From assembly GCF_026810505.1 (NCBI RefSeq), contig NZ_CP101750.1, forward strand, positions 7,552,515-7,616,514: a DNA stretch of 64,000 bases, given 5' to 3'. Positions 10,287 to 33,540 of this stretch are shown piece by piece. A model generated the notes under the pieces. It made no database searches. It was not told where the DNA came from and worked only from the letters and a program-made list of their open reading frames with translations. The first letter of the stretch is position 1. Each line of letters starts with the position of its first letter. The position numbers were made by a program, and so were the translations under genes. Origin of the DNA: Streptomyces sp. Je 1-369. GTDB taxonomy: Bacteria; Actinomycetota; Actinomycetes; Streptomycetales; Streptomycetaceae.

Positions 10287-10323
10287 GGGCGTCTCTCCCT
10301 CCGGTTGTCGTACGTGAACCTTC

Positions 10324-10405: not shown

Positions 10406-10421
10406 TCCGTTGAGCGTCGGG

Positions 10422-11330
10422 TCAGCGGTGGCCCGCCGCCGTCGCCTTCTCCGTGGCCGACCGCACCAACGCCTCCGTGGCGCCGGACAGCGGGGAGCGC
10501 GGCGGGCGGGTCGGGCCGCCGCGTCGGCCCACGATGTCCATCGACAGCTTGATGGACTGCACGAACTCCGTCTTGGAGTCCTGGCGCAGAAGCGGATGCA
10601 GCGAACGGTAGAGGGGGAGCGCCGTCGCCAGGTCGTGGGCGCGGGCGGCGCCGTAGAGCTCCGCGCAGGTGGCGGGGAAGGCGTTCGGGTATCCGGCGAT
10701 CCAGCCGACCGCGCCCGCGAGGGCGAGTTCGAGCAGAACGTCGTCCGCGCCGATCAACAGGTCCAGGTCCGGCGCGAGTTCGGCGATCTCGTACGCCCTG
10801 CGGACGTCGCCGGAGAACTCCTTCACGGCTACGACCGTGCCGTCGCCGTGCAGCCGGGCCAGCACGTCCGGGGTCAGGTCGACGCGGGTGTCGAGGGGGT
10901 TGTTGTACGCGACCACGGGCAGGCCGGCCCCGGCGACCTCGGCGTAGTGGGACCGTACGGCGTCTTCGTCGGCGCGGTAGGTGTTCGGCGGCAGGAGGAG
11001 CACGGAGCCGCAGCCCGCCTCCGCCGCGTGCTCGGCCCAGCGGCGGGACTCCGCGCTGCCGTACGCGGCGACGCCGGGCATCACGCGGGCTCCGTCGCCC
11101 GCGGCCTCTACGGCGGTACGGACGACGCGGGCGCGTTCGTCGTCGGTCAGGGTCTGGTACTCGCCCAGGGAGCCGTTCGGGACGACGCCGTCGCAGCCGT
11201 TGCCCATGAGGTGGCCGACGTGCTCGGCGTAGGCGTCGTAGTCGATGGAGAGGTCCTCGCGCAGGGGGAGCGCGGTGGCGACCATGATGCCGCGCCAGGG
11301 GCGGTCTGCGGTCCAGTTTCCTGCGGTCAT
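10422..11330 (-). CDS. DapA-family lyase/deaminase, probable pyrroline-4-hydroxy-2-carboxylate deaminase
   Basis: 302 residues of the dihydrodipicolinate synthase family. The Schiff-base lysine is Lys170 (VVAVKEFSGD), the proton-relay Tyr is Tyr142 (VVAYNNP) and the substrate-carboxylate loop is GSLGE at 53-57. In bacterial hydroxyproline catabolism a DapA homologue deaminates delta1-pyrroline-4-hydroxy-2-carboxylate to 2-oxoglutarate semialdehyde, and the neighbours fit that step. The start overlaps the stop of the FAD oxidoreductase (ATGA). A general DapA-like aldolase cannot be ruled out from sequence alone, but the context makes the deaminase role most likely. Confidence 0.85.
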   Translation of the reverse strand: MTAGNWTADRPWRGIMVATALPLREDLSIDYDAYAEHVGHLMGNGCDGVVPNGSLGEYQTLTDDERARVVRTAVEAAGDGARVMPGVAAYGSAESRRWAEHAAEAGCGSVLLLPPNTYRADEDAVRSHYAEVAGAGLPVVAYNNPLDTRVDLTPDVLARLHGDGTVVAVKEFSGDVRRAYEIAELAPDLDLLIGADDVLLELALAGAVGWIAGYPNAFPATCAELYGAARAHDLATALPLYRSLHPLLRQDSKTEFVQSIKLSMDIVGRRGGPTRPPRSPLSGATEALVRSATEKATAAGHR

Positions 11331-16828: not shown

Positions 16829-16904
16829 GTCGCATGTAAGCCAGTTGCCGTCATGCGTCACGTACACCGCACCTCAGCCCCCACCTCCCACACAGGAGCC
16901 ATCG

Positions 16905-19256
16905 GTGTCCCACATGTCCCAGACACGTCTACGCACCCTGCGCAGATCCGTGCTCGCCGGCGCGATAGCGGCGACCCTCTGCGCCTCGGCCGTCCAGCTC
17001 GGACACGCTGCCGAGCCCGCCCCCGCGGCGGCGCAACCCCGCACCGCCACATCCGCACCCCCCGCCCGGACCCCCCTGGACGTCGTCGACCGCCGGGCGA
17101 AGGCCCCGAAGCCCGGCGCCTACGAGATCCCGGCACCCGGCGGGCTCAAGGACGGCCGCACTCCCGGCCCCCGCACGCCCAAGCCGAAAGCGAAGCCGAC
17201 AGCGAAGCCGAAAGCGAGCTCCGCGAAGGCCGCGCCCTGCACCCTCGACGGTGTCACCGGACTCTCGCCCGACCGGTTCGCCGACTTCCTCGCCGACCCC
17301 GCCGTCACCGCCGACGGCTGTCTCCGCACCCTGATCTGGACCTGGGACGCGCGGCTCGCCCCCGTCATGTCGGACGCGCACGTCCAGGCCGTCTCCCGCC
17401 GCGTCGCCGGGCTCGCGGCCGCCCACGACGGCAAGAACGGCAGCAACCTCCTGGAGCTGCTCACGTATCTCCATGCCGTCGCCTACCAGGACTTCTCGCA
17501 CGATGAGATCGATGTCACCGACGGGCCGACCGTGGACGCGATGCGGCGCGCCGTCGACGCCTTCGGCTCCGCGCCCCGCACCTTCGACGTGACGCGGAGC
17601 AACGCCGATTCGCTCCGCGAGGCGCTCTACGCGGCGAGCGCGCCGGGGCTCCGTCAGCATCAACTACCGTTGATCAAGCGGGTTCTTACCACCATGGACG
17701 CCAAGCACCCCGGCACCGCGAAGGACGCCGCCTGGGCCGGTTCCGCGCTCGCCGCGCTGTCCGTGAGCTATCTCGGCGTGTACCCCGGCAACCGGGACGC
17801 CGCCTTCCACGCCGCGGTGAAGGCCGACCCCTCCTACCGTGCCGCCTTCAAGGCCTTCGGCGGATACACCCACCTCAAGGGCACCGCCAACGCCTGGGTC
17901 GTGCGCGACGCGCTGAGCGAGTACGGAAGGTTCGGGCAGGTCGACGGGATCACCGCGGAGATCGTCTCCGGGCTCGGCGGGCTCGTGGACGTCGTCGTCC
18001 GCAACTTCGGTGAGGGCAGCGCCCCTTGGGCAAAGGTCGCCACCTGGCTGAACGAGTTCGGCGCCTGCGCGCCCTACAAGGTGTGCAAGGCCGACATCGA
18101 GCGCCGCCTCTTCCCGCAGACCTATGCGTACGACAAAGGCGGCATGAAGGTCCGCACGGCGCTCGACCGGGGCACCGTCGACCAGCTCTACTACGCGAGC
18201 AAGCAGGTCAAGGCGCAGTTCCACCGGGTCGTCGGCACCGAGGAGCCGCTCGCGGGCGACCCCAACACCACGCTGACGACGGTCCTTTACGCCTCGCGCG
18301 CCGACTACGAGAACTACCACCCGCTGCTCACCGGCATGGACACGAACAACGGCGGCGTCTACATCGAGCGCGGCGCGACCTTCTACACCTATCAGCGGCG
18401 GGTCCCGCAGGACTCCACGCTGACGCTGGAGGAGCTCTTCCGCCACGAGTACACGCACTACCTGAACGGCCGCTGGGCCGTGCCCGGGTTCTTCGGCGAG
18501 GGCCCCTGGTACCAGGGCGACCGGACCACCGCGATGGACGAGGGCACCGCAGAGTTCTTCGACGGCGCCACCCGCGACGACGGCATCGAGGTCCGCAAGT
18601 CACTGGTCCAGGGCATCATCGACGACACGGCCGACGGCGGCCCGCGGATGACCGTCGACCAGCTCCTGCACGCCACCTATGACGGCGACGGTTTCCGCTT
18701 CTACGACTACGCCGGAACGTTCTTCGAGTTCCTGTGGGCCGAACGCCCCGCCCTGCTCAAGGAGATGTACGGGTACCTGCGGGCCGACGACCCGGCGCGC
18801 TTCGACGCCTGGCGCGACCGGCTCGGCAAGGACCGCGGACTGCAGAGCCAGTACGACGCGTTCCTCGACAAGCAGATCGCGCACGTCGACGACCTCTTCG
18901 TGCCCGACACCACGTACGTGCCGGTCGCCGAGCTCCGCGACACCACCGCCGACCAGGTACGTGCCTCCATCGCGGCGACGACGGGCATCACGCCCGCCTG
19001 CCGGTCGAACGGTGCGCCGGAGCGGCCGCGGTACACCTGCACGGGCCGCATCACCGCGAACCTCGGTGCGTCCGGCGACCCCGACGCCGTGTTCAAGGAC
19101 ATGTCGGAGACCGTCGACTACTTCCTCCTCGAACGGTCCACGGCGGGCGACAACAACCTCGCCGACATGAACTGCTCCTTCGGCGAGGTCGACATCTGGA
19201 CCGACGGCCGCGCGGGCAGCGCGGACTTCAGCTGCGAGGGGCCGCTGAAGGGGTGA
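16905..19256 (+). CDS. Secreted M9 collagenase
   Basis: 783 residues. A basic, hydrophobic signal peptide (to about residue 36, cleavage after GHAA) directs export. A Pro/Ala/Lys-rich linker leads to the peptidase M9 activator and catalytic domains. The zinc motif HEYTH is at 514-518 and the third ligand Glu546 (DEGTAEFF) lies 28 residues after the last His, the spacing of clostridial collagenases. No PKD or collagen-binding domains follow except a short C-terminal domain with Cys residues. GTG 16905 is chosen because AGGAG lies 6 bases upstream; ATG 16914 is too far. Extracellular digestion of collagen releases hydroxyproline, which the neighbouring operon can degrade. Confidence 0.92.
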   Translation: MSHMSQTRLRTLRRSVLAGAIAATLCASAVQLGHAAEPAPAAAQPRTATSAPPARTPLDVVDRRAKAPKPGAYEIPAPGGLKDGRTPGPRTPKPKAKPTAKPKASSAKAAPCTLDGVTGLSPDRFADFLADPAVTADGCLRTLIWTWDARLAPVMSDAHVQAVSRRVAGLAAAHDGKNGSNLLELLTYLHAVAYQDFSHDEIDVTDGPTVDAMRRAVDAFGSAPRTFDVTRSNADSLREALYAASAPGLRQHQLPLIKRVLTTMDAKHPGTAKDAAWAGSALAALSVSYLGVYPGNRDAAFHAAVKADPSYRAAFKAFGGYTHLKGTANAWVVRDALSEYGRFGQVDGITAEIVSGLGGLVDVVVRNFGEGSAPWAKVATWLNEFGACAPYKVCKADIERRLFPQTYAYDKGGMKVRTALDRGTVDQLYYASKQVKAQFHRVVGTEEPLAGDPNTTLTTVLYASRADYENYHPLLTGMDTNNGGVYIERGATFYTYQRRVPQDSTLTLEELFRHEYTHYLNGRWAVPGFFGEGPWYQGDRTTAMDEGTAEFFDGATRDDGIEVRKSLVQGIIDDTADGGPRMTVDQLLHATYDGDGFRFYDYAGTFFEFLWAERPALLKEMYGYLRADDPARFDAWRDRLGKDRGLQSQYDAFLDKQIAHVDDLFVPDTTYVPVAELRDTTADQVRASIAATTGITPACRSNGAPERPRYTCTGRITANLGASGDPDAVFKDMSETVDYFLLERSTAGDNNLADMNCSFGEVDIWTDGRAGSADFSCEGPLKG

Positions 19257-20772
19257 GACCCCCGCCCGCGAGCAGTTCCGCCGCCGCGATGCCCGAGACA
19301 CGGGTCGCGCCGTGGGTGATCAGGCGGGTGGCGCCGAGCGCGTCGCCCGCCGGGACGCCCATCTCCACGACCAGGGCATCGGGGCGGCACCGCAGGATGC
19401 GGTTGAGGGTGTCGGTCATCCAGCGGTGCCGGGCCGCGTCCCGCACGACGACCACCAGAGCGCGGCCCGTCGCCGGGGTCAGCACCTCGCCGTCCAGGAT
19501 GTCGGCTGCGTGGGCGAGGTCGGGCTCCGTGAGCCGTACGGACGTGGTGCCGGGGCGCAGGTCCCGCAGCGGCTCGGCGACGCCCCACGGGGTGTGGCCG
19601 TCGATGGCCAGGTTCATCGTGGGGGACAGCTCCACGACGTGCGGGACGCCCACGACGGGGAGCGACGCGTTCGCCGTGCCGGTGCGGTGGTGCACCCGCA
19701 CGGCTCGGCGGGCGGCGACCAGGCCGATGTCGGTGGGGCCCGCCGCGCGGGCGACGGCTCGCGATCGCTCGCCGGACCAGGCAGCGAACTCCCGTACGCG
19801 CGTGCTCGCTTCGACGAGCCGCGCCTCGGGCAGCGTGCCGTCGATGACCGCCTTCACCAGGGCTGTGGAGAGCAGGTCGAACGTGGCCTCGTCGGCACTC
19901 TCGCCGCCCACGCACACCGCGTCCACACCGCCCGCCAAGGCCTTGACCGTCGCGCCGTCGATGCCGTAACGGTCGGTGACCGCACCCATCTCGATGCCGT
20001 CGGTGACGACGAGGCCGTCGAAGTTCAGCTCCCCGCGCAGCAGTTCCACCAGGATGCGGTGGCTGAGGGTCGCGGGCAGGTCCGGATCGTAGGCGGGGGC
20101 GAGGAGGTGCGCGGTCATCACGGCGCGTACGCCCGCCTCCATCGCCGCGATGAACGGCGGCAGCGCGGTGAGCGCGATCTCCTCGGCGGAGCCCTTCACC
20201 TGGGGCAGGCCGTAGTGCGAGTCGACGACCGTGTCGCCGTGGCCGGGGAAGTGCTTGGCGCAGGCGGCGACGCCGGCGTCCTGAAGGCCGCGGACCCAGG
20301 CGGCCGTGTGGCGGGAGACGACGTCGGTACGGGAGCCGAAGGAGCGTACGCCGATCACCGGGTTGAGCGGGTTGGAGTTCACGTCGGCGCTCGGCGCGAA
20401 GTTGAGGGAGACACCCGCGGCGTGCAGATCGCGGCCGATGTCGTGGGCCACCCGCTCGGTCAGGTCGATGTCGTCGACGGCGCCGAGGGCGAGGTTGCCG
20501 GGCCGGGACGAGCCGGTCCACGCCTCCAGACGGGTCACGTCGCCCGCCTCCTCGTCGATGGCGACGATCAGGTCCGGGTTCTCCGCGCGCAGGTCCGTGG
20601 TGAGCCGGGCGACCTGCTCCGGTGTCTCGATGTTCCGTGCGAACAGGACGACGGAGCCCAGACCCTCGGCGATCCTGCGGCGCAGCCAGGCGGGGGCCGT
20701 GGTGCCCTCGAAGCCGGGCTGCAGCACGGAGTGGGCGAGGTGCTCCAGAGACGGGTCACTGCTCGGTGCCAT
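19228..20772 (-). CDS. Glycoside hydrolase family 3, beta-N-acetylhexosaminidase (NagZ-like)
   Basis: 514 residues, no signal peptide. The NagZ signature KHFPGHGDT is at 173-181 with the Asp-His acid/base pair in DSHYG at 184-188, and the nucleophile is Asp258 in VVTDGIEM. NagZ-type enzymes remove GlcNAc from chitin or peptidoglycan fragments. A second (alpha/beta) domain follows after residue 340. ATG 20772 is preceded by GGAGG. Its 3' end overlaps the collagenase 3' end by 29 bases in convergent orientation. A DasR-like box lies 70 bases upstream, which fits GlcNAc control. Confidence 0.9.
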   Translation of the reverse strand: MAPSSDPSLEHLAHSVLQPGFEGTTAPAWLRRRIAEGLGSVVLFARNIETPEQVARLTTDLRAENPDLIVAIDEEAGDVTRLEAWTGSSRPGNLALGAVDDIDLTERVAHDIGRDLHAAGVSLNFAPSADVNSNPLNPVIGVRSFGSRTDVVSRHTAAWVRGLQDAGVAACAKHFPGHGDTVVDSHYGLPQVKGSAEEIALTALPPFIAAMEAGVRAVMTAHLLAPAYDPDLPATLSHRILVELLRGELNFDGLVVTDGIEMGAVTDRYGIDGATVKALAGGVDAVCVGGESADEATFDLLSTALVKAVIDGTLPEARLVEASTRVREFAAWSGERSRAVARAAGPTDIGLVAARRAVRVHHRTGTANASLPVVGVPHVVELSPTMNLAIDGHTPWGVAEPLRDLRPGTTSVRLTEPDLAHAADILDGEVLTPATGRALVVVVRDAARHRWMTDTLNRILRCRPDALVVEMGVPAGDALGATRLITHGATRVSGIAAAELLAGGGLTPSAAPRS

Positions 20773-20841: not shown

Positions 20842-20857
20842 ATTGGTCCAGGCCAAT
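20842..20857. promoter_or_regulatory. DasR-responsive-element-like box
   Basis: ATTGGTCCAGGCCAAT matches 12 of 16 positions of the published dre consensus A(C/G)TGGTCTAGACCA(G/C)T, including the TGGTC and CCA half-sites. It lies between the divergent GH3 and alcohol dehydrogenase genes. DasR is the GlcNAc-6-P-sensing GntR repressor of Streptomyces. Confidence 0.5.
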
Positions 20858-20998: not shown

Positions 20999-22000
20999 AT
21001 GCGCAGGTACGAACTCGTCGGCAGGCGCGACATCCGGCTGGTCACCGACGTGGCGGTGCCGGAGCCGGGGCCTTTGGAGGTGCTGGTCCGCGTACGGGCC
21101 TGCACGGTCTGCAACCGCAGCGACCTCGCCTACTTCCACTACTACGGACTGCGCGACCACTGCTCCCAGGGGTGTTTCGGCCATGAGATCGCCGGAGTGG
21201 TCGAGGCGACAGGGGCGGGAGTGCAGCGTGTGGTGCCCGGGCAGCGCGTGTTCGTCCGCACGCCGCTCACCACCGGGTACGCCGAGTTCGCCCTGGCCCG
21301 CGAGATCTCCGTGGGCGCCCTGCCCGACGCCGTGCCCTTCGAGCAGGGCGCGCTCCTGCAACTCCTCCCGCTCGCCGTGCACGCCACCCGCGGCGTCCGG
21401 CTCGGCGACCGCGTCGCCATCGTCGGGCAGGGGCCCGTCGGGCAGATGGCGCTGCGGGTCGCCGTGGCGCGCGGCGCGGCCGAGGTCGTCGCCGTCGACC
21501 TCGACGACTGGCGGCTCGAACGCTCCTCGGCGGCGGGCGCGGACGCGGTACGAAGGGTGGACGGGAGCGCCGGGCAACTCGCGGCCGTAGGCGCGGACTT
21601 CGACGTCGCCGTCGACGCCGTCGGCACCCCCACGACGCTCAACGCCTGCGTGGGACTCGTACGGCAGAACGGCCTCGTCGTCCTCCTCGGCACGCACCAC
21701 GTCGACACGCACGTCACCGTCGACCTGGTCACCTGGGAACGTAAGGGCCTGCGGGTGCACAGCTCCGCGGAACCCCTCGACACCGCGCGCGCCGAAGCCC
21801 TCGCCGTCGCCGAACGCCTCGCCCACCGCCGCACCGAAGCCCTGCGCCTGCCCGACCTCCACACGCACACGTACCCCCTCGACGAACTCCCCAAGGCCAT
21901 GGAGCAGCTCTCCGCGAGCCGCGCCCTCTACCCCGATGCCGAACACGCCCCCTACGACGGCCCGCCCCCCGAGACCCTGAAGGTGGCGATCGTGCCCTGA
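20999..22000 (+). CDS. Zinc-type alcohol/polyol dehydrogenase (MDR family)
   Basis: 333 residues of the medium-chain dehydrogenase family. Catalytic zinc residues are Cys38 (CTVCNRSD), His62-Glu63 (GHE); the four-Cys structural zinc lobe is absent. The NAD(P)-binding turn is GQGPVGQMAL near 142. ATG 20999 has a GAGGGGAGAG box. The gene is followed after 15 bases by a Gfo/Idh/MocA oxidoreductase on the same strand, a pair typical of sugar or cyclitol redox steps. The nature of the substrate cannot be read from sequence. Confidence 0.82.
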   Translation: MRRYELVGRRDIRLVTDVAVPEPGPLEVLVRVRACTVCNRSDLAYFHYYGLRDHCSQGCFGHEIAGVVEATGAGVQRVVPGQRVFVRTPLTTGYAEFALAREISVGALPDAVPFEQGALLQLLPLAVHATRGVRLGDRVAIVGQGPVGQMALRVAVARGAAEVVAVDLDDWRLERSSAAGADAVRRVDGSAGQLAAVGADFDVAVDAVGTPTTLNACVGLVRQNGLVVLLGTHHVDTHVTVDLVTWERKGLRVHSSAEPLDTARAEALAVAERLAHRRTEALRLPDLHTHTYPLDELPKAMEQLSASRALYPDAEHAPYDGPPPETLKVAIVP

Positions 22001-22015: not shown

Positions 22016-22966
22016 GTGAAGTGGGGCATCGCCGGGTACGGCGACATCGTGACCCGCCGCGTCCTGCCCGCCCTGCACGCCCTCGGCGAGGAACCCGTGG
22101 CCCTCTGGGGCCGCGACCCGCACCGCGCCGCACGTACCGCGGAACGCCATGCCGTCGCCAGATCCGGTGCCGCCTTCGACGTCCTGCTGTCCGGCGTCGA
22201 CGCCGTGTACATCGCCACACCCGTCGTACACCACGTGCCGCTCGCCCGCGCCGTCCTGGCAGCGGGCCTGCCCGTCCTGATCGAGAAGCCTCTCGCCGGC
22301 GGCCTCGGCACCGGGGGCACGCTCGACACGGCGGGGCGGCGCGCGGGGGTCGCCTACTACCGCAGGCTCGCGCCCGCCGTACGACGGCTGCGCGAGGAAC
22401 TCGACGCCTGGACGCCCGACCGGGTCGAGGTGCACTTCCGGTGTGCCTTCGCACCCGGCCCCGACGACCCGATGCGCTGGCGCACCGACCCCGGCCTGTC
22501 CGGCGGCGGGGTCCTTGCGGACGCGGGAAGCCACCGGATCGACCTGCTGCTCCATCTGTTCGGGCGCCCCTGTGAGCTGACGGCCCGGCTCGGCGACCGC
22601 TTCCCGCGCGGCGCGGAACGACGCGCCGAACTCACCCTGCGCTGGCCCTCCGGCCTCCGGGCGCACTGCCTCGTGGAGTGGCGCGAAGGGCCGCCCGTGG
22701 ACCGCTTCCGGCTGACGGGCGGCGGCCGCACACTGACGCTCGCGCCACTGGACGCGGGCCGTATCGACGCACCCCCGGGCCCGTCGCTCCTGCTTCCCCC
22801 GCCCGCCAACCCCCACCAGTCCCTGCTCGCCGACTTCGCGGCCGCCGCGGCGACGGGGAAGGAGCCGGTGTGCCCGGTGGCGGAGGCCCGCCTCGTCGAC
22901 GAGGTGATCGTGGCGGCGGAGCGGTCGGACGCGGCGGGAGGGCGCCCGGTGCGGATGTGGGGGTGA
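22016..22966 (+). CDS. Gfo/Idh/MocA-family oxidoreductase
   Basis: 316 residues. N-terminal Rossmann motif GIAGYGDIVT, the catalytic-site EKPLAGG motif with Lys near 92 and a C-terminal alpha/beta domain with AGSHRIDLLLHLFG are the family marks. GTG 22016 follows the dehydrogenase stop by 15 bases. NAD(P)-dependent oxidation or reduction of a sugar or cyclitol is the usual role. Its 3' end faces the PhyH gene with a shared hairpin between them. Together with the preceding gene and the aminotransferase fusion it could feed an aminated polyol or similar, which is inference. Confidence 0.82.
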   Translation: MKWGIAGYGDIVTRRVLPALHALGEEPVALWGRDPHRAARTAERHAVARSGAAFDVLLSGVDAVYIATPVVHHVPLARAVLAAGLPVLIEKPLAGGLGTGGTLDTAGRRAGVAYYRRLAPAVRRLREELDAWTPDRVEVHFRCAFAPGPDDPMRWRTDPGLSGGGVLADAGSHRIDLLLHLFGRPCELTARLGDRFPRGAERRAELTLRWPSGLRAHCLVEWREGPPVDRFRLTGGGRTLTLAPLDAGRIDAPPGPSLLLPPPANPHQSLLADFAAAAATGKEPVCPVAEARLVDEVIVAAERSDAAGGRPVRMWG

Positions 22967-22972
22967 AGGCAT

Positions 22973-22998
22973 ACGGGGCGCGGTGGGTCACGCCCCGT
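22973..22998. terminator. Bidirectional hairpin between convergent genes
   Basis: ACGGGGCG (22973-22980) pairs with CGCCCCGT (22991-22998) over a 10-base loop. It sits between the Gfo/Idh/MocA stop and the PhyH stop, overlapping the latter. No T-run, as is common in high-GC genomes. Confidence 0.55.
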
Positions 22999-23848
22999 CG
23001 TCCGCCGACCAGGGGCGGAGCCAGCGCGGGTCAGGTCTGTCGTCGGAGCGTACGAAGCGGGTGTCCACGGAGAGGCGCATCGTGTCCGTCGTCGTGTCCA
23101 GGGAGGCGTGGATGATGCGGGGCAGGTGCACCATCACGTCGCCCGCCGCGAAGTCCGCGTACAGCCAGCGGCGGCCGAGGGTGCGGGCGGTCAGCTCCAG
23201 GTCGTGGCAGATCTGCCGCCGGTCGCCGGGCCGGTCGGTGGTGTCGCGCAGCGGGGCGTACTCCTCGGGCGGCAGTCGGTGGGAGCCCTCCAGGTAGACC
23301 AGGGCGCCGGTGGGCGGCGGGCAGTCGCCGACCGGGATCCAGAAGGTGACGACGCGCGGCGATCCCTCGTCCATGTAGTCGAAGTCGACGTGGGCGCGGG
23401 AGGCGCGCCGGGTGCCGCGGTGGAAGTGGCGCAGGATGCGGCGCGGCAGCATCTCCGCCTTGGCGTCGAGGAGCTGACCGGCGAGCTCGGACAGGGCGGG
23501 GTTCGCCACGAACTGGTCGAAGGGCTCCGAGCGTACGAACGCGTGGGCCGGGTGCCCCGCCACTCCGTACTCCGGGACGTCTTCGGGTACGCGGCCGGAG
23601 AACACGCCGTCCTCGGGCGTACTGCCCGGTGCGAGCAGGCCCGGCGGGAAGAGGGAAAAGTACCGGCCGCGCAGCCGCAGCACCTCCGCGCGGTCGAGCA
23701 GACCCGGCAGGTACAGGCAGCCGTCCGCGTGCAGCCGCTCCCGCAGCGCGCCGGCGTCCCTCGTCTCCAACAGGTCCGCGCTGGGGCGCAGCGGGCCGAA
23801 GAGTTCCGGCGTGAAGGGTATCGGTACGCCGTTCGACGACAGGTTCAC
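22988..23848 (-). CDS. Phytanoyl-CoA dioxygenase-family Fe(II)/2-oxoglutarate oxygenase
   Basis: 286 residues. The facial triad is visible: His153-x-Asp155 (HVDFDY) and a distal His at 241 or 247 (GDVMVHLPRIIHAS), with the 2-oxoglutarate-binding Arg258 (MRLSVD). The enzyme should hydroxylate or otherwise oxidise a small molecule. Start GTG 23848 has a GGGA box about 10 bases upstream; the longer frame upstream is a shadow of the synthetase. Fourth to sixth genes of the operon are separated by short gaps (50 bases here), so it is likely the last gene of the biosynthetic set begun by the radical SAM gene. Substrate unknown. Confidence 0.82.
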   Translation of the reverse strand: MNLSSNGVPIPFTPELFGPLRPSADLLETRDAGALRERLHADGCLYLPGLLDRAEVLRLRGRYFSLFPPGLLAPGSTPEDGVFSGRVPEDVPEYGVAGHPAHAFVRSEPFDQFVANPALSELAGQLLDAKAEMLPRRILRHFHRGTRRASRAHVDFDYMDEGSPRVVTFWIPVGDCPPPTGALVYLEGSHRLPPEEYAPLRDTTDRPGDRRQICHDLELTARTLGRRWLYADFAAGDVMVHLPRIIHASLDTTTDTMRLSVDTRFVRSDDRPDPRWLRPWSADDGA

Positions 23849-23898
23849 GATGCGTGTCCCTCGATCCTTCGGGTCGGGTGGACCGGCCTGCGGACCGG

Positions 23899-25014
23899 TC
23901 AGTAGACGCCTTCCACCGCCTCTTCGGCGGCCCCGGACTCCACGAAGGGCCGCACGGCGGCGACCCCGTCCCAGGGGAACCACGGATGCGGCCCGGTCCT
24001 GACCGCGCTGTCCCGCTCCAGGAGGTTCGGCAGGAAGAGGTCCTCCAGGAGCGTCGTGGCGCGCACCCGGCCCCGCTGTCCGACCTCGACCTCGCGCCAC
24101 GGGTCGGAGTCGTCGACGACCTTCAGGACCGCGAAGGGCGGCGGCAGGTGGTAGGAGTGCCCGGTGCCGCCCTCGACGGTGGCCGCGTCCGCCAGGGGGT
24201 CGGCCTGGAGAGCGTGGCCGACCAGCGTGTTGCCGTACGTGTCGATCCACTGCACGTCCGCCAGGTGCTCCTCGCGCAGGAACTCGGCCTCCGCGGCGCT
24301 GCACGAGGTGCCGCCGGTGCAGACCGCGCGGATGCCGTACGTGTGCAGGGGCCCGGGCAGCCGCATCGCGAGCTCGACGAGCAGCCGGGAGGTCGTGAAG
24401 AGCAGCGCGGGGCGCTCGGCGGCGAGCAGCGTGAGGGTCTGGTCGATCAGGTGGGCGGTGTAGCCGTCGGCCTCGCCGCCCGAGCGCAGCGCGGCCTTCA
24501 CCCAGCGCGGGTCGAAGTCGATGGCGTGCACGGCGCCGCGCCAGCTGTCCGCGAGGCCCTCCACGAAGTGCCCGTACGCGTGCGGCCCGCTCGGCGTCAT
24601 CGCCAGGATGTCGCCGCCCGCGACCCCGCGCGCCTCGAGCACGGTGCGGTAGACCTCCACGTCGTACGCGAGGCGCGTGACGTTGACGATCCGGCAGGGC
24701 GGGCCCGTGGTGCCGCCCGTCTCGAAGACCCGGAAGGGCCGGTCGCGGTAGCCGCGCGGCAGCAGATCGCGGGCATTCGCGGCGCGCAGCTCGGCCTTGT
24801 CGAAGAGGCCGAAGCGGTCCAGGTCGGCGAAGCCGCCGATGTCCTCGACCGGGTCGAAGCCGAGCTTCCCGCGCCGGGCGACCCAGAAGGGGCTGCCGGT
24901 CTCCGGGTCGAAGTGCCAGCGCATCATGCGGCGCGTCCACGTGTCGAGGCCGACGCCGAGCTCCGGGACGCGCTCGCGCAGCCTGTCGGGCAGCGTGCCG
25001 AAGGCGGTCGTCAT
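23899..25014 (-). CDS. Adenylate-forming carboxylate reductase component (GriD/LuxE-like)
   Basis: 371 residues of the acyl-adenylating (ANL) superfamily, close in layout to PaaK/LuxE-type proteins. The ATP loop ETGGTTGPP is at 98-106, and a later DTYGNTLVG motif occupies the second adenylation core position. It lacks a full C-terminal ANL subdomain and an acyl-carrier domain. In grixazone biosynthesis GriD (PaaK-like) acts with GriC (acyl-CoA reductase-like) to reduce an aryl acid to its aldehyde with ATP and NADPH; LuxE and LuxC form a comparable pair for fatty acids. The next upstream gene is the matching reductase, 7 bases away, so activation of a carboxylic acid is the likely role. Confidence 0.8.
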   Translation of the reverse strand: MTTAFGTLPDRLRERVPELGVGLDTWTRRMMRWHFDPETGSPFWVARRGKLGFDPVEDIGGFADLDRFGLFDKAELRAANARDLLPRGYRDRPFRVFETGGTTGPPCRIVNVTRLAYDVEVYRTVLEARGVAGGDILAMTPSGPHAYGHFVEGLADSWRGAVHAIDFDPRWVKAALRSGGEADGYTAHLIDQTLTLLAAERPALLFTTSRLLVELAMRLPGPLHTYGIRAVCTGGTSCSAAEAEFLREEHLADVQWIDTYGNTLVGHALQADPLADAATVEGGTGHSYHLPPPFAVLKVVDDSDPWREVEVGQRGRVRATTLLEDLFLPNLLERDSAVRTGPHPWFPWDGVAAVRPFVESGAAEEAVEGVY

Positions 25015-25021
25015 GCGGGCC

Positions 25022-26233
25022 TCACTTCGCTGGGCGGTACACGAACAGGGCGTCGGCGGTGATGGCGTCCGCGGCACGGGGGGAGGCGCTCAGGACGGCG
25101 GCGAAGGGGAAGGGGACCTCGTGGCCGATCAGCGGGTGGGACGCCGCCGCGTCGTCCGTGCCTCGCGTGAACGCCGTGACATGGCCGTCAAGGAGGGCGA
25201 TGTGGGGCAGCGCGTACACGTCGTCGGCCGTGCTGTGCAGGACGGGCGGGCGGCGGGTCAGGATGCGGTCGCCGGGGCGGAGACGGTCACGGATGCCGCG
25301 CGTCGTGCTCTCGGCGGCGCCCGGCTCCCGGAAGGCCGTCAGCGGCCACGGCCCGTCCGGGGGCAGTGCGTCGAGGGCGGCGGCGAGGCCCCGCGCCAAG
25401 GGCGCGGCGGCGTCGGGCTTCTCGCACACGACGGTCCGTACGTTGCTGCAGAAGCGCCCCGAGTCGGCCGCGATCAGCGGCAGCAGCCAGGCCACGGCGT
25501 CGTCCGTCGGCATGTCGGGCGGCACGAGTGCGCAGCCGCGTCCTGGGCCGTGCAGGGTGAGCGCGGGGGAGGAGCGGACGGAGGCGGCGAGGCGGGCGCC
25601 GCCGTAGACGACGTGCCGGTCGGTGAGCCGTAACAGGCCCTGCAGGGAGCGCTGTTCGCCGGGGTAGAAGCCGAGGCGGGCCCGTGGCCAGCCCGCCGCG
25701 AGCAGGGCCGCGACCAGCCGCGCCGCGGAGACCGGCTCGCGCCGGCTCGGACGCAGCCACACGCCCGCCGAGCGCTCGGCCTGGTCGCAGACCGCGTCCA
25801 GGCAGGTGAAGGTGTTGCCCGGCAGCGCGACCAGGGCCAGCGCCCCGTCGGGCTCGGGGGCGTCATCCTTCTTCAGGACGCCGTCCCGCAGCATCGCGCA
25901 CCACCGGTCCACCAACGGGCCGGGCAGCCCCGCGCTCTCCCACAGTGCCGCGCGGAACGCCTCGGCGCTCTGCTCGCCGATGCCTCCGACGGTGAGGGTG
26001 CCGGTGTCGAACAACTCCAGTGCGGTGAGCAGGAGTTCGCGGCGGCCGGTGAACAGGGGCAGCGCCGGGAGGGCGCCGTCCCACCATCGCCGGTCCGCGT
26101 CGGCGACTATCTCCGGCACCAGCGCGAGCTCCCGTCCCGCGGGGCCGGGCAGCGGCGCCCGGTCGAGGGAGGTGCGCCACTCCCCTCGGCGGAACGCGGA
26201 GATCGTCACTGCGACGGAGGGTTCGGGGGTCAC
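25022..26233 (-). CDS. Acyl/aryl carboxylate reductase (GriC/LuxC-like)
   Basis: 403 residues of the aldehyde-dehydrogenase-like acyl-CoA reductase family. The catalytic cysteine is Cys262 in the SGRFCSNVR motif, and the cofactor-binding region is LVALPGNTFTCLDAV followed by AGVWLRPSR near 135-163. Such enzymes take an activated acyl group onto the Cys and reduce it to an aldehyde with NAD(P)H. The start overlaps the stop of the fusion gene (GTGA) and the end is 7 bases from the adenylating partner. The linked aminotransferase suggests that the aldehyde is then converted to an amine. Confidence 0.8.
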   Translation of the reverse strand: MTPEPSVAVTISAFRRGEWRTSLDRAPLPGPAGRELALVPEIVADADRRWWDGALPALPLFTGRRELLLTALELFDTGTLTVGGIGEQSAEAFRAALWESAGLPGPLVDRWCAMLRDGVLKKDDAPEPDGALALVALPGNTFTCLDAVCDQAERSAGVWLRPSRREPVSAARLVAALLAAGWPRARLGFYPGEQRSLQGLLRLTDRHVVYGGARLAASVRSSPALTLHGPGRGCALVPPDMPTDDAVAWLLPLIAADSGRFCSNVRTVVCEKPDAAAPLARGLAAALDALPPDGPWPLTAFREPGAAESTTRGIRDRLRPGDRILTRRPPVLHSTADDVYALPHIALLDGHVTAFTRGTDDAAASHPLIGHEVPFPFAAVLSASPRAADAITADALFVYRPAK

Positions 26234-28371
26234 GGCAGCTCGCTGCGGAGTGCGGCGACCACCCGGACCTGCTCGTCCTCCGTGAGGGACGGGTACAGCG
26301 GCAGCGCGACATGGTGCCGCGCGAACCAGCGGGCCCGCTCGAACGCGCCACCTGCCGCGTCCAGTTGCCGCTGCGGCGCGAACTGGGGTTGGTCGCACAG
26401 CAAGTGGTCGTACACCTCGCCGGCCAGCGCCACCCCGTGCCGTTCCCGCAGGACCTTCTTCAGGAGCGGGCGATCCAGCGGGCCGTCGGGATCCAGATAG
26501 GCGAGGTACTTGTAGTAGTTGCTGCCGGCCGCCGCGGGCACGGCGTGCGGGCGGATCCCCGGGACGTCGGCGAGCAGCACGTCGTACCGGGCGGCGAGCG
26601 CCCTGCGCGCGGCCAGGGTGCCGGAGAAGCGCTCCAGGTCCACCGTGCCTACGGCGGCGTGCAGTTCGCTCAGGCGCCAGTTGCCGCCCGGCCGGTCGTG
26701 CAGCGTGGATCCCTGGGCGCTCTTGCCGTGGTCGCGCCAGCGCCGCACCTGCTCCAGGTCGTCCGCCGACGCGGCCGACAGCAGGCCGCCCTCGCCGCTC
26801 ACCGCCACCTTCGTGGGGTAGAACGAGAACGCGCCGAACCGTCCGAAGCTCCCCGCCGGACGCCCGCCGAGCGTCGCCCCGAAGGCGTGCGCCGCGTCCT
26901 CCACGACGGGGATGCCGCGCAGGTGACAGTGGGCGAGCGCCGCGTCGAGCGCGGGTGAGACGATGCCGCCGATGTGGACGGGCAGCACGGCGGCGGTGTC
27001 GGGGTGCCGGTCGAGGGCGGCGTGCAGGGCGTCCGGGTCCATGCCGAGACCGTCGAGCTCGATGTCGACGAAGCGCACGGCCGCCCCGGCCCGTACGGCC
27101 GCGGCGGCCGTCGCGAAGAACGTGTTGACCGGTACGAGCACCGTGCGGCCCGCCACGCCGATGATGCGCAGGGCGATCTCCAGCGCCGCCGAGCCGGACG
27201 CGACCGCGGCGGTGTCCGTGCCGGTCCAGGGGCGGGCGAGCTCCTCGAAGCGGGCGACCTGCGGGCCCTGCGTGAGGATGCCGGAGTCCAGTGCGGCGTC
27301 GACGCGGTCGAGCACGGTGCGCCGTTCGTCGACCTCGAAGTGGATGCGCTGGGCGGGCACTTGGGGAGCTTCGCATGGCTGCGGCCGGATCCCGCTGAGC
27401 GTGCGGGCGAAGAAGTCCGCCGCGTGGCCGACGTGGGTGCCGTGTCCCATGGCGAGTTCGTGGACCTCGGCTTCGGCTCCGGCGCTCGCGTACGTCTCCC
27501 GGACCGCGTCGGCCGCGGCCCGGGCGTCGTCGGGGTCCAGGTAGGAGTCGGCCGTGCCGTACTGGAGCTGGAGCGGGGCCGGGGCGAGGGTGCCGTACAG
27601 GTCGGGCAGGTCGGCGTACTCCAGGATGCCGGGGAGCACCGCGCCCTCGTGCCCGGTCAGCAGCCGCTCGAACAGGGCCTGGTAGGTGCCGAGGTGGCTC
27701 GCCGCGCAGAGCGGGAGATCCCGGCGTCCGGAGAGCAGCGCCGTGTGCAGGGCGACCGCCGCGCCGAGACTGTGGCCGAAGAGCCCGACGCGTCGCGGGT
27801 CGACGCGCGGGTGGGCGGCGAGGACGTCCAGGGCGCCCAGGGCGTCGCCGGTGAGGGCGCCGAGCAGGGAGTGGCCGGTGAGCGCGAACGCGTGGGCCAG
27901 CAGCGTCCCTTCGTCCCGGCCCGCTCGGCGTCCGGCGTCCAGGCCGCCGCCGATGCCGTGGTCGAAGGAGAGCGTGACGAAACCGGCCCGCGCCAGCTGC
28001 TCGGCGACGTTGCGGTCGGGGTGGTCCGGTGGCACGTCGCCGGTGAGCTGGTCCAGACGGGCGTTCTTGCCGCCGAGGACGAGGACGGCGGGACCGGGCG
28101 CCGGGTCGGGCGTCGCACCGGGCGCCGGGTCGGACGGCGCGAGGAGCGTGCCGTGGAAGGAGCCGCGTACGGGGGACTGGAACACCAGCCGCTCGCGGTG
28201 CAGTCCATCGCGCACCGAGGCGGTGCTGTCGGCGGTGGTGAGCGGGGCCCGATCGACACGGGCCAGCCGCTCGACGACGGCGCGCACGCCGTTCATGGCG
28301 TTCACGGCGCCCTTGGCCTGCCGCAGGGACGGCTCGGCGGCGAGGAGCCCGCTTAGGTGGCGTAGTTGCAT
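26230..28371 (-). CDS. Fusion of alpha/beta-hydrolase and DegT/DnrJ/EryC1-type aminotransferase
   Basis: 713 residues in one unbroken frame. Residues 1-335 form a dienelactone-hydrolase-like domain: nucleophile Ser201 in GHSLG, an Asp near 275 (YGTADSYLDP) and His310 (MGHGTH). After a short linker, residues 345-713 are a complete PLP aminotransferase: Asp492 in EDAAHA, the PLP lysine Lys521 in FSFYPTKVA, and the usual N-terminal TQGP motif. ATG 28371 lies 7 bases after the radical SAM stop. Members of this aminotransferase family aminate keto-sugars, cyclitols or aldehydes. I am not aware of a characterised enzyme with this domain order; a hydrolase that releases or trims the product of its fused transaminase is one reading. 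Confidence 0.82.
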   Translation of the reverse strand: MQLRHLSGLLAAEPSLRQAKGAVNAMNGVRAVVERLARVDRAPLTTADSTASVRDGLHRERLVFQSPVRGSFHGTLLAPSDPAPGATPDPAPGPAVLVLGGKNARLDQLTGDVPPDHPDRNVAEQLARAGFVTLSFDHGIGGGLDAGRRAGRDEGTLLAHAFALTGHSLLGALTGDALGALDVLAAHPRVDPRRVGLFGHSLGAAVALHTALLSGRRDLPLCAASHLGTYQALFERLLTGHEGAVLPGILEYADLPDLYGTLAPAPLQLQYGTADSYLDPDDARAAADAVRETYASAGAEAEVHELAMGHGTHVGHAADFFARTLSGIRPQPCEAPQVPAQRIHFEVDERRTVLDRVDAALDSGILTQGPQVARFEELARPWTGTDTAAVASGSAALEIALRIIGVAGRTVLVPVNTFFATAAAAVRAGAAVRFVDIELDGLGMDPDALHAALDRHPDTAAVLPVHIGGIVSPALDAALAHCHLRGIPVVEDAAHAFGATLGGRPAGSFGRFGAFSFYPTKVAVSGEGGLLSAASADDLEQVRRWRDHGKSAQGSTLHDRPGGNWRLSELHAAVGTVDLERFSGTLAARRALAARYDVLLADVPGIRPHAVPAAAGSNYYKYLAYLDPDGPLDRPLLKKVLRERHGVALAGEVYDHLLCDQPQFAPQRQLDAAGGAFERARWFARHHVALPLYPSLTEDEQVRVVAALRSELP

Positions 28372-28378
28372 GTGCGGC

Positions 28379-29584
28379 TCAGACGAAGTCGCCGTGCAGG
28401 GTGCTGGGTACTTCCAGCGCGTACGCGTCCAGGGCCTCGTCGAGTTTGATCTGGCCGCGTTTGAGGAGTTCAAGGAGCTCGTTCTGGGGGCGGTAGAAGC
28501 ACGACTTGCAGAGGTCGGTCCGACGCGGGTTGGACGCCTCCCATTCCGCGCGCGGCCCGCCCTCGAGGACGTCCGCATATCCCTGTTCGAGGACATTGCC
28601 GATCAGATAGCGGCTGTTGAGGTGGACCTGCGGGCACGGGTAGAGATTTCCGTCGGCGCCGACGGCCGTCACGAACCGGCTGTAGTGGCAGTGCTCGAAG
28701 TCGCCCTCGACCTCCTCCACCTGGTCCATCGGGCCGCGGTCCAGTTTGGGGACCGACACCTCGAAGTCCTGCGTGGAGAGGGCGGCGGCGCGGGTGAGGG
28801 ATTCGGAGATCTCCGGCATCACGGATTCGATGGTTTCGTGGCCGAGGGCGCTGTAGAACTCGGGTTCGAAACGCACGTAGTGGGCGCCGGACTCGTGGGC
28901 GATGTGGGCCGCCTCCAGGATCTCCCGGTAGTTCTGGAGGGTGATCACGTAGTTGAAGCCGATGCGGAAGTCCGGGTCGACGGCGTTCTCGCGGAGCTTG
29001 CCTACCGATCCGATGAACTTCGAGAACGTCTGCTCGCGGTCCCGCGTGATGTCGTCGAAGGTGGCTTCCGTACCGGCGTTCAGGCCGATGCGGACCCAGG
29101 TGTGAGTCTCGGCGACGCAGTCGGCGACCTTGGGGCGGCCGAGGCGCGAGCCATTGGTGATGAGCCCGATCCGCAGCCCCGCCGCGTGGCCGGCCCGGCA
29201 GATGTCCGCGTAGCCGGGGTGGATGGTGCACTCGCCGCTGCCGCAGAACGTCACGGCCCGGCCGTCGTTCGCGGCGAATTCGCGGAGCAGCGTGACCGCC
29301 TTGTCGGTGGCGATCGAGTCCTTGAACGAGAACAGGTCGTAGAACTGTTCCTCGTTGGGCGAGTGGAAGTTGCAGAAATTGCACCGCATATTGCAGGCGC
29401 CCATGATGCCGATCCGCATGTGAACGGGTTTGATCTCCTGACCCGCCACGAAACGCCGCAGCAATTCGCCGTGAGCCAGGACCTTCTGTGGCGAGTGGGC
29501 CTGATCGAGACTGACGATGGGCAGACCTTCACGATTCTGGGGAGCTGCCATTTTGATGTCGCCGGAACCGGGTGTGCTGTTCAC
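28379..29584 (-). CDS. Radical SAM enzyme with SPASM-like C-terminus
   Basis: 401 residues from the preferred start. The [4Fe-4S]/SAM motif is Cys64-x3-Cys68-x2-Cys71 (CNMRCNFC), followed by a GSGECTIHP loop and a partial TIM barrel. Further cysteines near the C-terminus (CHYSRF, YPCPQ, CKSCF) suggest auxiliary clusters as in SPASM or twitch proteins. The start is uncertain: a strong promoter at 29638-29666 excludes the longest frame; GTG 29584 follows GGGGGG closely, and ATG 29551 is an alternative. It is the first gene of the operon. The reaction cannot be assigned; peptide modification or methyl/isomerisation chemistry are both possible. Confidence 0.82.
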   Translation of the reverse strand: MNSTPGSGDIKMAAPQNREGLPIVSLDQAHSPQKVLAHGELLRRFVAGQEIKPVHMRIGIMGACNMRCNFCNFHSPNEEQFYDLFSFKDSIATDKAVTLLREFAANDGRAVTFCGSGECTIHPGYADICRAGHAAGLRIGLITNGSRLGRPKVADCVAETHTWVRIGLNAGTEATFDDITRDREQTFSKFIGSVGKLRENAVDPDFRIGFNYVITLQNYREILEAAHIAHESGAHYVRFEPEFYSALGHETIESVMPEISESLTRAAALSTQDFEVSVPKLDRGPMDQVEEVEGDFEHCHYSRFVTAVGADGNLYPCPQVHLNSRYLIGNVLEQGYADVLEGGPRAEWEASNPRRTDLCKSCFYRPQNELLELLKRGQIKLDEALDAYALEVPSTLHGDFV

Positions 29585-29637: not shown

Positions 29638-29666
29638 ACATTAGGGAGCGCCACAAAGGCTGTCAA
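29638..29666 (-). promoter_or_regulatory. Strong sigma-70-type promoter of the radical SAM operon
   Basis: On the - strand, TTGACA (29666-29661) is followed after exactly 17 bases by TAATGT (29643-29638). The start point would be near 29630, inside the longest open frame, which shows that the radical SAM protein starts downstream. One of the clearest vegetative promoters in the window. Confidence 0.75.
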
Positions 29667-29682
29667 TGGGTCTAGACAACCC
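29667..29682. promoter_or_regulatory. Weak dre-like box next to the operon promoter
   Basis: TGGGTCTAGACAACCC sits directly upstream of the -35 box. It has the GGTCTAGAC core of a DasR site but only about 11 of 16 consensus positions. Regulatory meaning is speculative. Confidence 0.25.
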
Positions 29683-31801: not shown

Positions 31802-32512
31802 GTGACCGGACGTACTACGGGGGTGTACGAACGGGTGGTCCGTACAGGATCGGGGGAGCGACCGTCGCGAGGGCGGGGGACGGGGGTGCCCGACGGCACC
31901 CCCGCTCGGGTGCGGAACGTATCCGTGACCGGGCGCGCTCCACTGCTGCCGTCGAGGCTGTGGGTCGCCGGACGACGGCGTGAAGTGAGCCCGCGACGCG
32001 GGCGGAACGACCCCGGCGGTTCGGTCGAGGACCGGACCGCCCACGCCCTTGTCGCGCGTCCGCGGGGCCCTGCGGTCAGGTACGCCGCCGCGGGCCCGCC
32101 CGCCGAGAGCCCCGCACCCGTGCCAGCGTCCTGGCAGGGGATGCCGCGCCGCACCGGATCATCCGTGCCGGACCTGCCGCGACGCACCGGATCACCCGTG
32201 CCGGACATGCCGCGCCGCACCCCGCCACCCGTGCCGGACATGCCGCGACGTACCCGACCACCCGCGCAGGACAAGCCGCGCCGCACCGGATCACCCGTGC
32301 CGGACATGCCGCGCCGCACTCCGCCACCCGCGCAGGAAATGCCGCGCCGCACCGGATCACCCATGCCGGACATGCCGAGCCGCACCCCGCCACCCGCGCC
32401 GGAAATGCCGCGACGTACCCGACCACCCGCGCAGGACAAGCCGCGACGCACCGGATCACCCGTGCCGGACATGCCGAGCCGCACCCCGCCACCCGCGCAG
32501 GACAAGACATGA
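31802..32512 (+). CDS. Hypothetical protein ending in eleven 11-residue repeats
   Basis: 236 residues from GTG 31802 (GGAAAGAG lies 5 bases upstream); ATG 31784 in the same frame is an alternative. The N-terminal 110 residues are Arg/Gly/Val-rich and match nothing I know. From residue 114 there are eleven units of 11 residues, of type (M/L/K)P(R/S)RT-x-x-P-x-(P/Q)-(D/E), and then Lys-Thr-stop. The repeats are Pro/Arg-rich and should be disordered. The stop overlaps the next start as ATGA, which favours true translation and coupling. Other frames through the repeats are also open because the unit has no stops, so expression is not certain. Confidence 0.45.
   Translation: MTGRTTGVYERVVRTGSGERPSRGRGTGVPDGTPARVRNVSVTGRAPLLPSRLWVAGRRREVSPRRGRNDPGGSVEDRTAHALVARPRGPAVRYAAAGPPAESPAPVPASWQGMPRRTGSSVPDLPRRTGSPVPDMPRRTPPPVPDMPRRTRPPAQDKPRRTGSPVPDMPRRTPPPAQEMPRRTGSPMPDMPSRTPPPAPEMPRRTRPPAQDKPRRTGSPVPDMPSRTPPPAQDKT
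32141..32503 (+). repeat. Eleven 33-bp tandem repeats
   Basis: 363 bases of eleven contiguous 33-bp units starting at 32141. Units alternate between three types distinguished by the middle codons (ACCGGATCACCC, ACCCCGCCACCC and ACCCGACCACCC), with only scattered changes elsewhere. The order of types suggests duplication of multi-unit blocks. Not CRISPR: there are no unique spacers. Confidence 0.95.
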
Positions 32513-33540
32513 CGCACCCCACCCCCACCCCCACCTCCTCGCGCGGCGCCCCACCCCCCGCCCCCGAGACCGGCCTGTTCTCCCTCGCCGACCTGGCCGT
32601 GGAGACCGTCACCCGACTCGCCGAGCGCACCGTCGAGTTGCACCGGGACCCCACCGCCCACACACGCCCCCTGACCGGTGCCGCGCTCGGCATCCTGTTC
32701 GCCCTGCCGTCCACCCGCACCCGTACCGCCTTCACCGTGGCGGCCGCCCGCCTCGGCGCCGCCACCGTCGCCTACGGCCCCGGGGACCTGCACCTGTCGG
32801 CCGGTGAGGCCGTCGAGGACACCGGACGGTCGCTCGGGACCATGCTGGACGGGCTCGTCGCCCGGCCCGCCGGTTCACTCGACGACCTGCGCCGGCTCTC
32901 CCGCCACGGACATCTGCCCGTCGTCAACGCTATGACGCCGGAAGAACATCCCACGCAAGGACTCTGCGACCTGGCCACGCTGCGGCTGACACTGGGGAGC
33001 CTCGACGGGCTGCGACTCCTGTACGTGGGGGAGGGCAACGGCACCGCGACGGCGCTCGCGCTCGCCCTGTCCGGCGTCCCCGGCTGCGAGGCCACGTTCG
33101 CCTGTCCGCCCGGCCACGGCCTGCCCGACGGACTCCTGGCGACCGCGAGGGAGCGCGCCGGCCGGGCCGGGGCCACCTTCACCTGCCGTGACTCGGCCCG
33201 GTCCCTGCCGGTCGGCGTCGACGTCGTCTGCACGACCCGCCGCAGGACCACCGGCGCCGGGCAGCCCGACGGCGCGTGGCGTGAACGGTTCCGGCCGTTC
33301 CACGTCGACGAGGAGTTCATGACGCGCCGCCCCGGCGCCCTGCTCCTGCACGACCTGCCCGCGCGCCGCGGCGAGGAGGTCTCCGGCGCGGTCCTCGACG
33401 GCCCGAGGTCGGCGGCTTGGACGCAGGCCGCCATGAAGCTGAGCGGCGCGATGGCCGTCCTCGAACGGTTCACCGGCCCTCAGGCCCCGGGGACGCCCGC
33501 GGCCCCCGAGACCGCCGCCGTCTCGGACGCCGACGCCTGA
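32509..33540 (+). CDS. Ornithine/aspartate carbamoyltransferase-family protein of unknown substrate
   Basis: 343 residues. The carbamoyl-phosphate-binding STRTRTAF motif at 68-75 and the NAMTPEEHPTQ motif at 140-150 are intact, and an LHDLPARRG segment replaces HCLP near the C-terminus. The amino-acid-binding loop that reads DxxxSMG in ornithine carbamoyltransferase is VVCTTRRRTTG here, so ornithine is unlikely to be the second substrate. No other arginine genes are nearby. The start overlaps the stop of the repeat protein (ATGA), and the 3' end overlaps the LuxR gene by 61 bases. It probably carbamoylates another amine, perhaps in specialised metabolism. Confidence 0.75.
   Translation: MTHPTPTPTSSRGAPPPAPETGLFSLADLAVETVTRLAERTVELHRDPTAHTRPLTGAALGILFALPSTRTRTAFTVAAARLGAATVAYGPGDLHLSAGEAVEDTGRSLGTMLDGLVARPAGSLDDLRRLSRHGHLPVVNAMTPEEHPTQGLCDLATLRLTLGSLDGLRLLYVGEGNGTATALALALSGVPGCEATFACPPGHGLPDGLLATARERAGRAGATFTCRDSARSLPVGVDVVCTTRRRTTGAGQPDGAWRERFRPFHVDEEFMTRRPGALLLHDLPARRGEEVSGAVLDGPRSAAWTQAAMKLSGAMAVLERFTGPQAPGTPAAPETAAVSDADA

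Follow-up and report, generated by a model that had tools for sequence, protein, structure and literature searches.

Reduction of aryl carboxylates is known for GriC/GriD and for griseoluteic acid, which is adenylated by EhpF in Pantoea/Enterobacter. The radical S-adenosylmethionine (rSAM) enzymes BlsE, a cytosylglucuronate decarboxylase, and DesII both act on sugars, and enzymes of the DegT and Gfo/Idh type occur in the 3-amino-5-hydroxybenzoic acid (AHBA) and kanosamine routes. Here we report on an operon of Streptomyces sp. Je 1-369 that lies in a stretch of 64,000 nucleotides (contig NZ_CP101750.1, positions 7,552,515 to 7,616,514; "the window" in the following) of a single-contig genome of 8.82 Mb. 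Like EhpF and GriC/GriD, it places an ANL adenylate-forming enzyme beside a reductase of the aldehyde dehydrogenase (ALDH)/LuxC type. The closest folds to its rSAM enzyme are BlsE and DesII, with which it has the radical SAM core and the auxiliary cluster region in common; the nearest named relatives of this enzyme belong to Streptomyces.

We propose, with a probability of roughly 0.55, that the operon belongs to a conserved carrier-free cassette making a small aminated, hydroxylated, aldehyde-derived metabolite from a precursor related to N-acetylglucosamine (GlcNAc), and that it is controlled by DasR in Streptomyces. The proposed steps rest on enzyme families; the substrate, the step order, the product and DasR binding we infer. 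No carrier protein is encoded among the cassette genes, and we regard the set as an orphan biosynthetic cluster whose composition is new. The five core genes are:

28379-29584, minus strand: radical SAM/SPASM enzyme, 401 amino acids, GTG start (PF04055 9.4e-17, PF13186 2.2e-7)
26230-28371, minus strand: alpha/beta-hydrolase-DegT fusion, 713 amino acids (PF01041 3.8e-78)
25022-26233, minus strand: ALDH-superfamily reductase of LuxC/GriC type, 403 amino acids (profile against PDB: GAPN 1ky8 4.2e-14)
23899-25014, minus strand: ANL adenylate-forming enzyme, EhpF/GriD-like, 371 amino acids, ETGGTTG motif
22988-23848, minus strand: PhyH-type Fe(II)/2-oxoglutarate oxygenase, 286 amino acids (PF05721 2.7e-14)

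The gaps between these genes are 7, -4, 7 and 50 bases, as a reading made from the letters alone (the sequence-only reading) had stated and as the sequence and an open reading frame check confirm. Its family assignments hold in general according to Pfam and profiles (rSAM, pyridoxal phosphate (PLP) enzyme, reductase pair, PhyH), and the hydrolase-aminotransferase fusion it had described is real, with a single frame in 25 of 26 sequences; the sole non-fused case, L010, has frame breaks in several genes. Failure of the five homologues to occur together elsewhere had been named as a point that would speak against the set. A pattern scan of a species-genome collection with the rSAM enzyme (six peptide patterns, not exhaustive) gave 35 named loci, and 25 of these contain all five. 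Presence and absence of genes were scored by tblastn, because a mechanical gene caller had in several loci chosen frames that were antisense or too long. A chance neighbourhood is ruled out by this recurrence of five genes across 25 loci.

The hosts of complete sets are Streptomyces, four other actinobacterial genera, one actinobacterial metagenome-assembled genome (MAG) and Bradyrhizobium. Contig ends interrupt the incomplete loci L007 and L034, and in L025 the contig ends soon past the rSAM gene so that a piece of the reductase alone remains; genes are lost in L025, L032, L035, L038 and L040. The two cyanobacterial contigs hold one cut and one decayed copy of the cassette. L037, L039 and L041 come from Clostridia, where the cluster is a different one.

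Two further genes converge on the operon:

22016-22966, plus strand: Gfo/Idh/MocA oxidoreductase, convergent accessory partner (PF22725 8.5e-17, PF01408 2.8e-13)
20999-22000, plus strand: Zn-dependent (MDR) alcohol dehydrogenase (ADH), convergent accessory partner (PF00107 2.6e-16)

Both are present at 21 of the 25 complete loci. The sequence-only reading had the five core genes right, and the extent it gave them (22988 to 29584) is too narrow, as ADH, Gfo/Idh and a glycosidase gene of family GH3 recur alongside; these partners and the link to GlcNAc had been overlooked. Pairwise distances for eight protein queries (seven genes, the fusion counted as two) correlate with r = 0.886 to 0.975 over 325 or 231 pairs. 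Among 295 congeners, a cassette-type adenylating enzyme (LuxE, 78-100%) occurs in 7 genomes, all of them within the 9 that have the rSAM enzyme; in the two remaining rSAM-bearing congeners the identity of the rSAM enzyme is 76% and 52%. At E up to 1e-60 the rSAM enzyme was found in 6 of 150 relatives, and across 396 genomes of the phylum in the window's own genome only. The cassette has apparently spread horizontally, and its occurrence in Actinomycetota, Bradyrhizobium and, as remnants, cyanobacteria makes it probably ecologically useful.

The rSAM enzyme carries the motif CNMRCNFC and four more cysteines conserved in the family alignment (C299, C317, C359, C362), and its C-terminus is SPASM/Twitch-like. 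In its AF2 model (pLDDT 86) the best Foldseek matches are BlsE 7vob (6.4e-13) and DesII 8hzv. Against the family models displayed it stays far under the cut-off, save for the generic SPASM model TIGR04085, where it falls narrowly short (26.2 versus 27). Membership in the family of BlsE cytosylglucuronate decarboxylase is not supported, with 40.6 bits against a cut-off of 400 (TIGR04466), the likeness being one of fold only. We also dropped the reading as an antiviral prokaryotic viperin: NF038283 gives 53.2 bits against a cut-off of 180, and the PADLOC match to pVip (1.6e-18) spans residues 60-224 alone, that is, the radical SAM core.

In the fusion protein an N-terminal alpha/beta hydrolase of approximately residues 1-330 with the nucleophile motif GHSLG precedes a DegT/DnrJ/EryC1/StrS aminotransferase (residues 351-709), whose PLP lysine lies in SFYPTKVAVSGEGG and is kept in 26 of 26 sequences. 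The hydrolase motif reads GHS(L/M)G in most members and GRSLG in L034, and one broken piece aligns differently. For the hydrolase model (pLDDT 86) Foldseek places the folds of acetyl xylan esterase, cephalosporin C deacetylase and CE15 glucuronoyl esterase nearest. We do not assign it to the CE7 carbohydrate esterases, as GxSQGG, the nucleophile motif of CE7, is absent and the likeness is confined to the fold. Most named relatives found for the DegT domain presumably act on keto-sugars or ketones. The sequence-only reading had favored a route from carboxylate via aldehyde to amine through this DegT enzyme. That is possible, because the listed relative 5k8b, an octulosonate transaminase, aminates a terminal aldehyde.

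The adenylating gene adjoins the reductase gene in all 26 sequences, and by their families the two are supported as a putative two-component carboxylate reductase (EhpF/GriD plus ALDH/LuxC type), in line with the adenylate-forming/ALDH pair named earlier. Cys262 in GRFC is invariant in the family alignment of the reductase; its members match Pfam Aldedh in 15 of 15 and LuxC in 9 of 15 cases at E up to 1, and the window's own reductase matches Aldedh at 0.003 and LuxC not at all. Among members of the adenylating enzyme, AMP-binding was matched in 11 of 13 and Pfam LuxE in none at E up to 1. The partner is therefore EhpF/GriD-like and not LuxE proper, and the former "LuxE" label had to be given up; EhpF is closest. 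The PhyH enzyme at the end of the operon has the invariant residues H153xD155, H241/H247 and R258 (family alignment), with profile matches to PtlH 2rdn (3.7e-11), SnoN and SnoK.

These relatives bring up another explanation, namely an aromatic acid pathway in which the EhpF/LuxC-like pair would reduce an aryl carboxylate and DegT and Gfo/Idh would supply an aminated precursor. Among solved structures, EhpF (3hgu/3l2k) is nearest to the adenylating enzyme and aligns to residues 25-371 at 1.2e-43. Plasmid relatives of this enzyme comprise 28 records; the 10 listed, at 38-40% identity, are named arylcarboxylate reductase (7), phenazine biosynthesis protein (1) or hypothetical (2). For the reductase the plasmid search gave no relative. 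AHBA synthase 1b9h is likewise among the DegT matches (3.8e-27), yet PseC and other sugar aminotransferases match this domain better. One of the plasmid relatives (38%) adjoins aroF and isochorismate synthase; in contrast, no shikimate-type or 3-deoxy-D-arabino-heptulosonate 7-phosphate (DAHP) synthase gene was seen in the cassette or among its annotated neighbours, the annotation covering a minority of the neighbours. Moreover, identity to the window's enzyme is 57-89% for those of the cassettes, versus 34-44% for the other LuxE-like Streptomyces relatives listed. We regard an aromatic product as unlikely.

The proposed GlcNAc-related precursor is suggested by the glycosidases near the cassette, the first of which lies in the window itself:

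19228-20772, minus strand: GH3 NagZ-type beta-N-acetylhexosaminidase, divergent from the ADH gene (PF00933 4.6e-69 on a longer frame)

Its translation carries the sequence KHFPGHGDTVVDSH, in agreement with the NagZ motif KH(F/L)PG...DSH. The motif is present in both GH3 genes checked, that of the window and that of Bradyrhizobium L033. Of the 25 complete loci, 16 have a GH3 gene adjoining the cassette (15 Streptomyces and L033). Further copies exist elsewhere: the L033 genome has a second one (49%), and the window's own genome has two other GH3 relatives, at 53% and 42%, the former about 3.5 kb from dasR. In the cyanobacterial locus L035, a GH84 beta-N-acetylglucosaminidase (1.8e-58), unrelated to the GH3 family, precedes the rSAM frame at a distance of 48 bases, with the decayed cassette behind. 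This copy, at 5713-8433, consists of a full-length rSAM gene followed by broken pieces of hydrolase, DegT, LuxE and PhyH.

A second connection leads to the das locus. In 5 of the 35 loci (L021, L025, L026, L032, L040) the rSAM gene directly follows a dasR-family gene, and the one tested, that of L026, is DasR (4zs8, 2.5e-142). The window genome encodes a DasR with 88% identity to it. Near the dasR-family gene there are GH3 genes (Pfam in L026), a glucosamine-6-phosphate isomerase-type gene (Pfam in L021; the same family in L025, L032 and L040) and, judged by eye, putative ABC sugar transporter genes. In L032 and L040 the core cassette genes behind the dasR-family gene are lost. The rSAM copies there (10001-11227) lack the first motif cysteine in L032 and the entire motif in L040, which indicates that this insertion is decaying.

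Upstream of the operon and of the GH3 gene we note three sequence elements:

29638-29666, minus strand: operon promoter with -35 TTGACA (29666-29661), 17-base spacer and -10 TAATGT (29643-29638)
29666-29681, minus strand: candidate DasR-like operator GGTTGTCTAGACCCAT, 12 of 16 positions as in the dre consensus, overlapping or abutting the -35 box
20842-20857, minus strand: candidate DasR-like operator ATTGGCCTGGACCAAT in the GH3 promoter region, identical in 5 of 16 chosen sequences

The promoter is the one the sequence-only reading had called strong, and its boxes are present; a generic promoter scanner reported none here, and the -10 box matches at 3 of 6 positions. TTGAC stands 66-103 bases upstream in 23 of 23 aligned sequences of the Streptomyces type (the window and 22 loci; L025, titled Streptosporangium, was included, and L022, whose upstream region is without such a box, was left out). 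PMC4398421 gives the dre consensus as A(G/C)TGGTCTAGACCA(G/C)T. The exact core GTCTAGAC occurs 86-114 bases upstream of the rSAM gene in 16 of 36 sequences (the window and 35 loci), all of the Streptomyces type, and variants are GTCCGGAC in L011 and GTCCAGAC in L009. Other operators in front of the rSAM gene scored 12-14 of 16, and in shuffled sequences (200 per sequence) the score of the window's operator is reached in 1%. In the GH3 promoter region of the other chosen sequences with Streptomyces gene order the score is 11 in four and 8-10 in seven; the best motif matches near dasR and the das-locus GH3 gene of this genome score 13-14. From these sequence elements, DasR probably acts as a repressor of the operon in Streptomyces, with expression following the supply of GlcNAc or chitin.

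Several observations weigh against the proposal as a whole. Common ancestry of the Streptomyces loci is partly behind both the conservation and the distance correlation. ADH and Gfo/Idh are absent from the DNA examined around L009, L021, L022 and L031. The fold match of the rSAM enzyme, at a TM of about 0.6, leaves its reaction unfixed, and the acid need not be sugar-derived, because the closest named adenylating relatives (EhpF, arylcarboxylate reductases) use aromatic acids. Of the 36 sequences, 20 lack the operator core: all 12 that are not of the Streptomyces type and 8 that are. For the das-locus loci keeping the core, shuffles reach the score in 3.5-7%, and L028, which is without the core, scores 12 of 16 elsewhere by chance. 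Across the genome there is no excess of the dre motif (219 hits to the 12-base core with at most two mismatches, versus 279 for a reversed control), and the case for an operator was therefore built on position and conservation and not on count.

Glycosidase and DasR links could also be incidental, with the cassette making an unrelated amino aldehyde or alcohol and the GH3 and GH84 genes being chance neighbours or self-resistance copies. The lack of motif enrichment fits this, as do the 7 of 25 complete loci with no GH3 gene in the DNA examined (L022, L023, L024, L027, L028, L029, L031) and two, L021 and L026, with the das-locus GH3 gene only. According to PMC4398421, DasR targets moreover include antibiotic-production genes. 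On the other hand, beta-N-acetylglucosaminidases of two unrelated families stand next to rSAM genes of different phyla, and the Bradyrhizobium cassette contains one more NagZ copy. We consider a coincidence of this kind improbable.

Within the proposed GlcNAc-related pathway, the glycosidase would free or unmask a beta-GlcNAc-type unit, and the sugar-like skeleton may be altered by redox or radical chemistry through Zn-ADH, Gfo/Idh and the rSAM enzyme. Removal of an acyl or ester group could fall to the hydrolase domain, and amination of a ketone or aldehyde to the DegT domain fused to it. A carboxylate would be adenylated by the EhpF-like enzyme, and the LuxC-like enzyme would then reduce the acyl adenylate to the aldehyde. 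With the new amine this aldehyde may form a cyclic imine by condensation, and PhyH would hydroxylate.

A more specific version is that of a new carrier-free, DasR-switched route to an iminosugar or aminocyclitol that mimics GlcNAc. A sugar carboxylate would be adenylated and reduced, and the aldehyde would close a ring on the amine installed by DegT, after rSAM chemistry. If the product inhibits beta-N-acetylglucosaminidases or mimics their substrates, this would account for the co-located, non-homologous NagZ-type GH3 and GH84 enzymes. We advance this version tentatively and hold it to be doubtful.

The complete loci show five gene arrangements, the first being the Streptomyces type. ADH and Gfo/Idh lie upstream and divergent in Nonomuraea L023, the MAG L028 and Nocardiopsis L029; the LuxC/LuxE set is apart and divergent in Dactylosporangium L024; PhyH precedes LuxC in Actinospica L031; and in Bradyrhizobium L033 the ADH gene stands between DegT and LuxC within the cassette, with PhyH divergent. 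Common neighbours of L023, L024 and L028 are an N,N-dimethylformamidase-like protein (Pfam DMFA2_C, L028), a glycosyltransferase (Pfam, L024) and, by Pfam in L024 and L028, an MFS transporter.

DegT and Gfo/Idh enzymes are typical of surface-polysaccharide loci, and the cassette could accordingly serve to make an uncommon sugar destined for a surface glycan or capsule. An epimerase gene near L024 and L033 would fit, as would a gene of a glycosyltransferase family in L019, L021, L023, L024 and L028 (Pfam for L021 and L024). This family is found in only 5 of 36 sequences, however, and there is no polymerase or flippase among the annotated neighbours, themselves a part of all neighbours. We see hardly any room for this explanation.

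Other genes in the window are an M9 collagenase-type peptidase gene adjoining GH3 (16845-19256; the family is also found in L008-L011), an aspartate/ornithine carbamoyltransferase family gene (32509-33540) and, upstream of the operon, a large LuxR-type regulator with an AAA ATPase and TPR repeats (33480-36299). The rSAM relatives of the Clostridia (L037, L039, L041; 48-54%) stand beside a second rSAM-family protein and a stand-alone DegT enzyme. Their cluster has an acyl carrier protein (Pfam PP-binding, L037 and L039) and an AAT-type acyltransferase (Pfam, L039 and L041).

With its constant set of enzymes and an inducer that can be tested (GlcNAc or chitin oligomers), this orphan pathway allows a direct search for its product. 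If the proposed GlcNAc-related pathway is true, chitin sensing would be joined to small-molecule production in Streptomyces, and an EhpF/GriD-type reductase pair tied to sugar-type enzymes is an added case of such a pair.

Among the literature matches listed, a search that left most subscription papers outside, there is no described pathway with this gene set. Allosamidin, pactamycin, nagstatin, siastatin and butirosin do not, to our knowledge, match the enzyme set of the cassette. Butirosin-type aminocyclitol pathways (rSAM enzyme BtrN and DegT enzyme BtrS) have the combination of rSAM, DegT and dehydrogenase in common with it; the cassette differs by being without 2-deoxy-scyllo-inosose synthase and by its carboxylate reductase pair. 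The three-gene azasugar clusters, as PMC8382821 presents them, are alike in general logic, with an amine-forming enzyme and a dehydrogenase leading to a nitrogen-containing sugar mimic. The cassette was rejected as a member of these clusters, its aminotransferase being of the DegT type instead of bearing the signature published there and the cassette having no phosphatase. It has the rSAM enzyme, the reductase pair and PhyH in addition. Unlike BlsE and DesII, its rSAM gene has no nucleoside or dTDP-sugar gene beside it among the cassette genes. Compared to EhpF and GriC/GriD, finally, the cassette is without an aromatic-pathway gene and forms a separate identity group (at least 57% versus 34-44%), and its reductase pair comes together with the rSAM enzyme, the DegT fusion and PhyH in 25 complete loci.

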